This document shows positions 60,417 to 64,000 of a stretch of 64,000 bases of DNA, in pieces. A model generated the notes under the pieces. It searched no databases. It had not been told where the DNA came from and worked only from the letters and a program-made list of their open reading frames with translations. Position 1 is the first letter of the stretch; each line of letters opens with the position of its first letter. The DNA is taken from the NCBI GenBank assembly GCA_903829015.1, contig CAIKOJ010000151.1, forward strand, positions 62,001 to 126,000. Reading direction: 5' to 3'. The translations under genes and the position numbers were made by a program. Source of the DNA: an uncultured Bacteroidota bacterium. Its GTDB lineage: Bacteria; Bacteroidota; Bacteroidia; Chitinophagales; Chitinophagaceae.

Positions 60417-60785
60417 ATGGAAACAACGGCGTCAGCAAACACACTGGTAATTAGGAAAGGTGAAGGTTCCAACGATCAAATCAAGTTGGACTATGTTGCA
60501 GTGAAAAATGCAGCAATGACATTGAGGGCAATCAACCACAAACTGCGTCAGCAGATTGTTAAGTTGTTGGAAGAAAACAAGCGTATGAACGTTACTGACA
60601 TTTATGTAAAGTTGCGTTTGGAGCAGTCAGTTGCTTCACAGCATTTGGCAATTCTTCGTAGGGCAAACATCGTGATCACTGAGCGTGATGGTAAGTTTAT
60701 CCACTATGCACTGAATCATGCACGTATCGCAGCAGTGGCCAAGTTCGTAAATGAGCTGGTTCATTCTGAAGAAACTGCAGCTTAA
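60417..60785 (+). CDS. ArsR-type winged-helix transcriptional regulator
   Basis: AMTLRAINHKLRQQIVKLLEENKRMNVTDIYVKLRLEQSVASQHLAILRRANIVITERDGKFIHYALN. Confidence 0.88.
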   Translation: METTASANTLVIRKGEGSNDQIKLDYVAVKNAAMTLRAINHKLRQQIVKLLEENKRMNVTDIYVKLRLEQSVASQHLAILRRANIVITERDGKFIHYALNHARIAAVAKFVNELVHSEETAA

Positions 60786-60862: not shown

Positions 60863-61465
60863 TCAGCTATTGCTATCCTTGATCTGCTCCCATGTGCTGT
60901 ATAACGATTCCTGAGTTGGGCGATCAGCAGGTAGCTCACTAAGAGGGCTACATGCGATCAGGGTATCGTGACAGTCTTTTGGAAGCATCTGATACAATCT
61001 GGTACCCTTGGTTTTCCAGTTAAGCATTTCATCGCTTACTTCTTTAATAACCTTGCCCGGGTTGCCTACAACCAGACTGCGCGGAGCGATCACTGTTTTT
61101 GCTGCGATAAACGTCATAGCACCAATAATGCATTCATCACCTATTACAGCCTCGTCCATGATGACTGAATTCATACCAACAAGCACATTCCTGCCAATAC
61201 TGGCGCCATGTATTATAGCGCCATGACCTATGTGGGCTCCTTCCTTTAATGTAAGCGTTACGCCCGGAAACATATGTATAGTACAATTCTCCTGTACGTT
61301 GCAGCCGTCTTCTATTACGATGCCTCCCCAGTCGCCACGGATAGCGGCACCCGGACCTACGTATACGTCTTTACCAATAATAACATTGCCAGTAACAGCA
61401 GCCTGAGGATGTACAAATGACGATGGATGAACAACCGGAATAAACCCTTTGAATGAATAGAACAT
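60863..61465 (-). CDS. gamma-carbonic-anhydrase-like / PaaY-CaiE hexapeptide repeat protein
   Basis: VHPSSFVHPQAAVTGNVIIGKDVYVGPGAAIRGDWGGIVIEDGCNVQENCTIHMFPG...HIGHGAIIHG. Confidence 0.9.
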   Translation of the reverse strand: MFYSFKGFIPVVHPSSFVHPQAAVTGNVIIGKDVYVGPGAAIRGDWGGIVIEDGCNVQENCTIHMFPGVTLTLKEGAHIGHGAIIHGASIGRNVLVGMNSVIMDEAVIGDECIIGAMTFIAAKTVIAPRSLVVGNPGKVIKEVSDEMLNWKTKGTRLYQMLPKDCHDTLIACSPLSELPADRPTQESLYSTWEQIKDSNS

Positions 61466-61721: not shown

Positions 61722-64000
61722 CTATTGTTGTTGTTTCACAAGCCTGCCAGAAGCTTTGCCGGAAGAATTCTGCGCTGATACCAAATATACACCCGGTGGC
61801 AATGCAGCTATATCCATTGATACAGAAGCCCCACTTATCACATTTATGGGTTGTTCTGCTACTTTCTGACCTAGCATATTATATATATACACCGTAGCCT
61901 TGCCTTCAAACTTAGGCATGATGATCTTTATCTGATCGTCAGCAGGGTTGGGCAGAATGTTGATCTCCGTAGGTTTATTAGTACGGAAATTCACCATAGA
62001 TGGTTTTGAATATGCCGTACGTGATTCACCTTTATGCTGAATACTGTGTTTGAGACTGGTGAAAGTCCAGTCGCTACCTGTATCTATAATTGAGAATTGT
62101 ACAGCATTGATCACACTATCGGTAACACTAGTTGAAAGCGCTTCAGCTGGCTCGGTATAAAATCCATACGGAGGATCTGCTGAAACAGAAACGCTCCAGT
62201 CGCCTTCTACTGATTCATATACAACAGGAAGGTAAGAAACCGAATCAGTAAACTCTACAGCCATCGGTGACACAACCAGCATCAGCGAGCCGAGCTCTTT
62301 ATGAGTATCTGCTTCTATACACCTGCCGGTCTGGTCTTTTAATACCGCATGGAACCGGGTAACGGAATTAGTACATGATCCAATCACAGATTCATCGTCG
62401 TCATCACGATCGTGATCATCGGCATCCACATCGTCATGTCCACCTACACGCTTTGCGGTGTAAATAGTACAAGTTGTGCCACCACATTTAGTAGAAGAAA
62501 CAACCGACTGGCCTACTACCAAATAATGGCCGAAAGCAGGCACGGTAATAACATACTGGTAAGCCGGACCACCGCCCAGATTCACAGAAACGGGACTGCT
62601 GACTACAGCATTGGCTATTTGTCCGGAAGTGCTGTTCCATACCGAGGCATAATGACTCTGGCTGCCATCGCGTGCACCGGATGTGTGCCTGTTGTACACT
62701 TTTATGCTAGATGCAAGAGCAGATTTTGTAACACCGGGATGGTTACCACTGCCGGTAACATACAACGAAGAATATACCGTAATAGTTGCACTGGGTGTTA
62801 CTGTTACACCCAAACCAGCAGTACTGGTGCAGCCTCCGGAGCCTGTTCCGGTAAGTGAAACCGTATAAGCATTAGCACAGCAAGGGCTTATTACTGTTAC
62901 GCTTGAACCGGTAGCCGACCCGGAAAAATATGGCCCGCCGCAATGCTGGTGATTGCAATAGTGACCGCTGTTGTGATGACAGGCTGATGAGCAAGACTGC
63001 CCGTTGTGATCGCAGCCTGCGTCGCAGGTGTGGGCACTGTTGTGGTGGCAGTATTTACTGCAATGATGATCGCCGGTATGGGTGTTGCCGCAGCTATGTC
63101 CGCTGTGGTGGTGACAGCCGGATGGGCATGAGCCACCATAATGATCACAACCCGACCCACAGCTATGGCTGCTGTTATGATGACATTTAGGATCACAAAC
63201 GTGGTCGCCACCGGTCAGTGACCAGCTGTAAGAAGACAGGCCGGAAGGAGCTGTATACACTGTTGCAACATTGCCAAGCACTGAAGTGCTGCCGGAGATA
63301 CTAACAGTAGTGGTAGTGTAGGTAGTAACAGCTGCCGAAGCTGACTTGGTACAGCTATGGGCATCAGTTACTGTAACACTGTATGTGCCTGCTGATAAAC
63401 CGGTGTTTGTGGATCCTGACTGTGAATTACTCCAGGCATATGTATATCCGCTGGTGCCGCCGCTAACGGAAGCGGCAATACTTCCATTTGAAGTACTTCC
63501 GCAGGAAACGTTGGTTGGTGTGAGCGTAACACTCAGTGCCGTGGGTTGGGTTACCGAAGCTGAGGATGCTTTGCTACAGCTATTTGCATCAGTCACCGTA
63601 ACGCTATACGTACCGACCGATAAACCCGAGATACCGGAATTAGAACCGCCATTGCTCCATACATAAGAATATGTTCCTGCACCGCCAGAAACTGATGATG
63701 TAACGGCACCGTTGCCGGAGCTGCCTCCGTTGGCACTATTACAAGATACGTTTGTGGCAGACAATGAAACGCTCACCTGCGCAGGCTGGCCAACTGTTGC
63801 AGAACCCGTAACGGTACAATTGGAAGCATCTGTAACAGTTACAGAATAGGTACCTGCACTCAGTGCGGAAGGATTGGCACCTGAGGCACCACCGGTCCAC
63901 GAATAAGAATAGGAGCCTGTACCACCGCTAACTGACGTGGTAATACTACCATTGGTATGGTTGCCGCCATTTGCTGTATTGCAGGATATATCGGTTGCCG
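61722..64000 (-). CDS. SprB-repeat adhesin-like protein with Cys/His-rich insert and T9SS type A sorting domain (5' end beyond the window)
   Basis: Repeated NVSCNSANGG...SVSGGAGTYSYVWSNGG...GLSVGTYSVTVTDANSC modules; C-term INILPNPADDQIKII...GVYLVSAQNSSGKASGRLVKQQQ. The frame stays open to 64000 (ATDISCNTANGGNHTNGSITTSVSGGTGSYSYSW...); the listed start at 63776 is an internal GTG. Confidence 0.9.
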   Translation of the reverse strand, partial: ATDISCNTANGGNHTNGSITTSVSGGTGSYSYSWTGGASGANPSALSAGTYSVTVTDASNCTVTGSATVGQPAQVSVSLSATNVSCNSANGGSSGNGAVTSSVSGGAGTYSYVWSNGGSNSGISGLSVGTYSVTVTDANSCSKASSASVTQPTALSVTLTPTNVSCGSTSNGSIAASVSGGTSGYTYAWSNSQSGSTNTGLSAGTYSVTVTDAHSCTKSASAAVTTYTTTTVSISGSTSVLGNVATVYTAPSGLSSYSWSLTGGDHVCDPKCHHNSSHSCGSGCDHYGGSCPSGCHHHSGHSCGNTHTGDHHCSKYCHHNSAHTCDAGCDHNGQSCSSACHHNSGHYCNHQHCGGPYFSGSATGSSVTVISPCCANAYTVSLTGTGSGGCTSTAGLGVTVTPSATITVYSSLYVTGSGNHPGVTKSALASSIKVYNRHTSGARDGSQSHYASVWNSTSGQIANAVVSSPVSVNLGGGPAYQYVITVPAFGHYLVVGQSVVSSTKCGGTTCTIYTAKRVGGHDDVDADDHDRDDDDESVIGSCTNSVTRFHAVLKDQTGRCIEADTHKELGSLMLVVSPMAVEFTDSVSYLPVVYESVEGDWSVSVSADPPYGFYTEPAEALSTSVTDSVINAVQFSIIDTGSDWTFTSLKHSIQHKGESRTAYSKPSMVNFRTNKPTEINILPNPADDQIKIIMPKFEGKATVYIYNMLGQKVAEQPINVISGASVSMDIAALPPGVYLVSAQNSSGKASGRLVKQQQ

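Follow-up and report, generated by a model that had tools for sequence, protein, structure and literature searches.

Cys/His-rich module in a SprB-repeat protein predicted to be exported

Near one end of the window (the whole 64,000-nucleotide stretch of DNA analysed here, from an uncultured member of the Chitinophagaceae), the minus strand encodes a segment in which 36 of 89 residues are Cys or His. This locus raises the question of whether such a segment is a genuine domain and, if so, what its Cys and His residues do. A reading made from the sequence alone had proposed about 90 residues with 15 Cys and 21 His, and both counts hold over the 89 residues encoded at 62940-63206. These are residues 265-353 of the minus-strand frame translated from 61722-63998, and the residues originally quoted are identical to this translation letter for letter. 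The frame stops at 61722 and is open from beyond the window end; read in the parent contig, the whole host ORF comprises 1823 amino acids (L021:1723-7194), so that the GTG at 63776 that had been taken for the start lies inside the gene. The features of the window part, all on the minus strand, are as follows.

61722..63998 (-) host gene, C-terminal 758 codons (translation)
63420..63527 (-) SprB repeat (PF13573) with the highest score, E 6.6e-14; two further stretches of the window part also score
63207..63329 (-) N-terminal half of the PKD-like domain that the module interrupts, VTTYTTTTVSISGS...YSWSLTGG (profile)
62940..63206 (-) 89-residue Cys/His module; its 15 Cys and 21 His are invariant in five copies (translation, alignment)
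63072..63206 (-) half-repeat 1, 45 residues, 7 Cys (half-repeat alignment)
62937..63071 (-) half-repeat 2, 45 residues, 8 Cys (half-repeat alignment)
62790..62939 (-) C-terminal half of the same PKD-like domain, GPYFSGSATGSSVTVISPCC...VTVTPS (profile)
62877..62882 (-) Cys-Cys pair in the C-terminal PKD half (alignment of copies)
61959..62792 (-) C-terminal region with no Pfam match, exclusive to module-bearing proteins (profile and homology searches)
62391..62444 (-) Asp-rich stretch GGHDDVDADDHDRDDDDE, inside the C-terminal region (translation)
61731..61955 (-) T9SS type A sorting domain, TIGR04183 / PF18962 (profile match)

The host is a protein of known kinds, with SprB repeats, a PKD domain and a T9SS type A tail. 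Its earlier assignment as a SprB/T9SS protein is supported by matches above cut-off to PF13573 (51.7 bits versus 28, three stretches, Pfam) and to TIGR04183 (45.3 bits versus a curated cut-off of 23). The protein is thus predicted to be exported via T9SS and held at the surface outside the cell, and its architecture suggests an adhesin. Its own SprB repeats contain recurring Cys pairs. The C-terminal region at 61959-62792 is itself an orphan: it occurs in the same three species of the 35 genus genomes as the module, and about 200 family genomes from outside the genus lack it.

The Cys residues of the module are separated by gaps of 3,7,3,6,3,7 / 9 / 3,7,3,6,3,7,4 residues, which is the duplicated spacing with a nine-residue linker noted previously, plus one extra Cys that closes the second half. 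A half-to-half similarity of 26/44 was reached in none of 100,000 shuffles of the same composition, and the number of CxxxC pairs taken alone is mildly enriched relative to shuffles (p = 0.01). The combined Cys and His count is the highest among 18,032 segments of 89 residues drawn from all six-frame open stretches of the window. A, V, I, L, M, F, W, Y and P together account for only 9 of its 89 residues.

As the sequence-only reading had anticipated, no named family has this pattern: Pfam, NCBIfam, PHROGs and the PDB returned no useful match, with zero PDB matches at E<=10 for both the module sequence and a half-repeat profile, and we found no such module described in the literature. Without ligand, AlphaFold leaves the module unstructured (pLDDT about 30); as only four similar sequences went into the prediction, this is weak evidence. 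A Foldseek search with the C-terminal model returned antibody-like noise and was set aside.

Insertion into a PKD-like domain

The intact window protein gives no Pfam match to a PKD domain. With the module excised, the paralogue in the same genome matches K319L-like_PKD (PF22352) at 30.9 bits versus a cut-off of 27 (E 2.7e-7), and the window copy matches at 25.8 bits, just under that cut-off (E 1.1e-5). PKD_6 (PF19408) also matches after excision, and the PKD matches span the junction. Because the module-free flanks of the paralogue score as PKD above the Pfam cut-off, the module is best described as a loop insertion. In all copies, a profile built from the domain without the module falls into two clean parts on either side of the module. 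This profile also matches, through the junction, uninterrupted PKD domains that relatives carry, such as W-TVTGG-TIVSGTTTSSV in L032. Together, the junction-spanning matches, the split profile and the empty relatives bear out the original proposal of an insert between two PKD halves, and place the insertion point after the YSWxxTGG strand. AlphaFold renders the flanks as PKD-like strands (pLDDT 50-60), the first of which runs into the module, and the best structure matches are PKD1 domains, although these are not significant by E-value.

The Cys-Cys pair at 62877..62882 is unchanged in all five copies that carry the module, and none of the empty PKD relatives seen has it. These residues are possible partners for the odd Cys of the module.

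Conservation and distribution

The paralogue that carries the same module is 61% identical to the window protein over the C-terminal 750 residues. Of the 35 genus genomes searched, just two others contain the module, with two copies in G211 and one in G214, and it is absent from the remaining 32. A search for the insert in SprB-like proteins of relatives, as proposed earlier, thus brings the further copies, the paralogue included, to four, all within the genus, for a total of five copies in three species and three separately assembled genomes; two pairs of close orthologues are included in the five.

All 36 Cys and His positions are invariant across the five copies, versus 12 of the 53 other positions (Fisher 9e-15), and the His positions alone give 2e-10. 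Any two copies differ synonymously at 16-23 of these 36 codons, nearly as many as two-codon amino acids allow. Drift thus had ample time to alter these residues, since their codons are synonymously saturated. These comparisons show that purifying selection acts on every Cys and His of the module, and the pattern argues strongly against chance, frameshift or misassembly. When the ten half-repeats are aligned, 17 columns are invariant (H2 C4 C8 H9 H10 H14 C16 C20 D21 H22 C27 C31 H32 H33 H37 C39 H43), comprising seven Cys, nine His and one Asp and nothing else. The two halves within one protein share only 22-27 of 45 residues, and the internal duplication must therefore be old.

No module was found in a sample of about 1,200 genomes from across the phylum. 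Divergent modules with other spacing could have escaped these searches, and the scan of the genome collection relied on short peptide patterns. The 200 family genomes contain no relative of the module (the sole weak match, in G080, lacks it), nor do 399 order or 395 class genomes, in which weak matches lack the C-x3-C-[HD]-H motif. A pattern scan of 396 phylum genomes produced one match outside the genus, in G408, with an in-frame stop just before it. Sets of plasmid, phage and viral contigs do not contain the module. We conclude that the module is a real, selected and narrowly distributed orphan domain.

The two copies in the window genome are syntenic with the two in G211, and the duplication of the gene therefore predates the split of these two species; the G214 copy lies at a different place. 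Shared distribution and synteny indicate that the module and the C-terminal region were inherited together. The C-terminal region is never seen without the module, so the search yielded no direct "before" state of the gene. The G211 orthologue carries an in-frame TGA (L054:5171-5173) about 660 codons before the module, which reflects either a point mutation or a sequencing error.

Possible functions of the module

The invariant columns consist only of Cys, His and Asp, which points to metal-ligand chemistry without a hydrophobic core. A metal-organised domain is favoured because conservation is confined to these residues, hydrophobic residues are few and no fold is predicted. The sequence-only reading had offered a metal-binding or a disulfide-knotted module. 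Of these, metal binding is the best inference from the invariant His and Cys, and is probable. On the available sequences we judge it somewhat better than evenly supported that this orphan duplicated domain forms a knob on a PKD loop that binds a soft or borderline metal outside the cell. In such a knob, the Cys and His residues would bind several soft or borderline ions at mixed Cys/His/Asp sites. Zn would be the most likely metal, a preference that draws on general chemistry, and Cu, Ni or Fe might serve instead. The metal would give order to a knob that otherwise has no core, and close to the cell the knob could then offer either metal or a contact surface that depends on it; storing metal, delivering it or gluing cells together are conceivable roles. 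Alternatively, the knob might be stapled by disulfides between some of its Cys, with the metal bound by the His. The most specific version, an extracellular metal-cluster domain of a kind not previously described, so far seen in one genus, with Cys/His/Asp ligands in a duplicated 45-residue unit that metal folds into a knob on the PKD loop, and several ions per knob, is a tentative proposal to which we give less than even weight.

Against the metal-binding reading, free extracellular Cys is prone to oxidise, and the comparison covers only five copies. A rival is a knob stapled by disulfides only, in which short loops closed by the Cys make up a ladder and the His have a part in contact or pH sensing and not in metal binding. 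The host is predicted to be exported, given its SprB repeats and T9SS tail, and the 15 module Cys, the Cys-Cys pair and the GGC Cys of the PKD half sum to an even 18, with the pair confined to module-bearing PKD domains among those seen. However, conservation of the 21 His is as complete as that of the Cys, and because disulfides do not require invariant His, a disulfide-only knob leaves these residues unexplained. In addition, an extra Cys in one copy makes the total odd. VKOR was not found in the genome, nor was an exported-type DsbA, and the sole DSBA-family match is fused to a protein resembling FAD-dependent oxygenases and, by eye, lacks an export signal; on the other side stand the recurring Cys pairs in the SprB repeats of the host. 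We regard a disulfide-only knob as rather unlikely.

A sub-case of the metal-binding reading, whose probability overlaps with it, is that metal bridges neighbouring knobs and so triggers adhesion between cells or to surfaces. The Cys/His cluster would be displayed at the surface on a repeat protein, and comparable Zn-dependent behaviour is known for the B-repeats of staphylococcal Aap (PMC9802226), which by analogy might extend to the host. The module lies near the C-terminal anchor, however, rather than at a distal tip, and we consider this use of the metal a minority prospect.

Two further possibilities fare much worse. The module might be a compact multihaem c-type cytochrome, with haem held by its four CxxxCH motifs, which are about 23 residues apart and each accompanied by further His that could act as axial ligands. 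CxxxCH is a rare haem motif, and the module contains no CxxCH. Two of the six CxxxC motifs are followed by Asp instead of His, hydrophobic residues for packing haem are nearly missing and no cytochrome family in Pfam or NCBIfam matches, which makes this reading very improbable. Low-complexity drift, a frameshift or an assembly artefact, which biased composition and narrow distribution might suggest, has a negligible chance of being correct; the sequence-only reading had named frameshift and misassembly among the outcomes that would refute it. Reading frame, length and every Cys and His are preserved in five copies from three genomes that were assembled separately, despite saturated synonymous codons, the orthologues are syntenic, and this conservation pattern rules out frameshift and misassembly.

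Comparison with known systems

Like other SprB-repeat T9SS surface proteins of Bacteroidota, the host has PF13573 repeats and a TIGR04183 tail; it differs in the Cys/His module and C-terminal region, which occur in no other protein searched. Its flanks join into one PKD domain (PF22352, PF19408), in keeping with the weak structure matches to PKD1, but it carries an 89-residue insertion and a Cys-Cys pair unseen in empty relatives. Metallothioneins are also Cys-rich with repeated spacing, in their case CxC/CxxC. The module, by contrast, has more His than Cys, uses CxxxC spacing and lies inside a large protein predicted to be exported, and it scores well below the cut-off of the metallothionein profile (Metallothio_6, 8.5 bits versus 23, E 3.9, Pfam).

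The Zn-dependent adhesins Aap and SasG are built from G5/E repeats, folds that have few metal ligands. By analogy, they and the host may both be surface repeat proteins whose behaviour depends on metal; Pfam and PDB searches showed no homology. The stalk and knob of bovine ultralong CDR-H3 offers a purely architectural analogy, in which a Cys-rich mini-domain likewise projects from a loop in an Ig-like sandwich; it is unrelated to the module and lacks an invariant His array.

If the metal-binding reading is correct, the module would represent a new and very dense extracellular metal-ligand motif, and a clean example of a new domain family inserted into an Ig-like scaffold. At 45 residues, its unit is short enough to be studied by direct chemistry. 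A metal-responsive module would bear on metal handling or surface attachment in these Bacteroidota.

Gene neighbourhood

The three module loci have different neighbours, and no metal uptake or efflux gene is consistently adjacent, which counts against the metal-binding reading. Adjoining the host gene at window 60417-60785 (+) is what appears by eye to be an ArsR-type winged-helix regulator, which lacks Cys. This neighbour occurs in every one of the 25 good genus genomes and is therefore not linked to the module. With loci that differ and an ArsR-type neighbour that belongs to the core gene set of the genus, gene neighbourhood was dropped as a clue to function. Upstream of the host gene, L021:9444-12842 (-) encodes, by eye, an RND-type efflux transporter and a membrane-fusion protein; the transporter is kept at the G211 locus and not at the other module loci. 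Also adjoining the gene, and conserved in G211, is a look-alike (by eye) of gamma-class carbonic anhydrase or PaaY hexapeptide proteins at window 60863-61465 (-).
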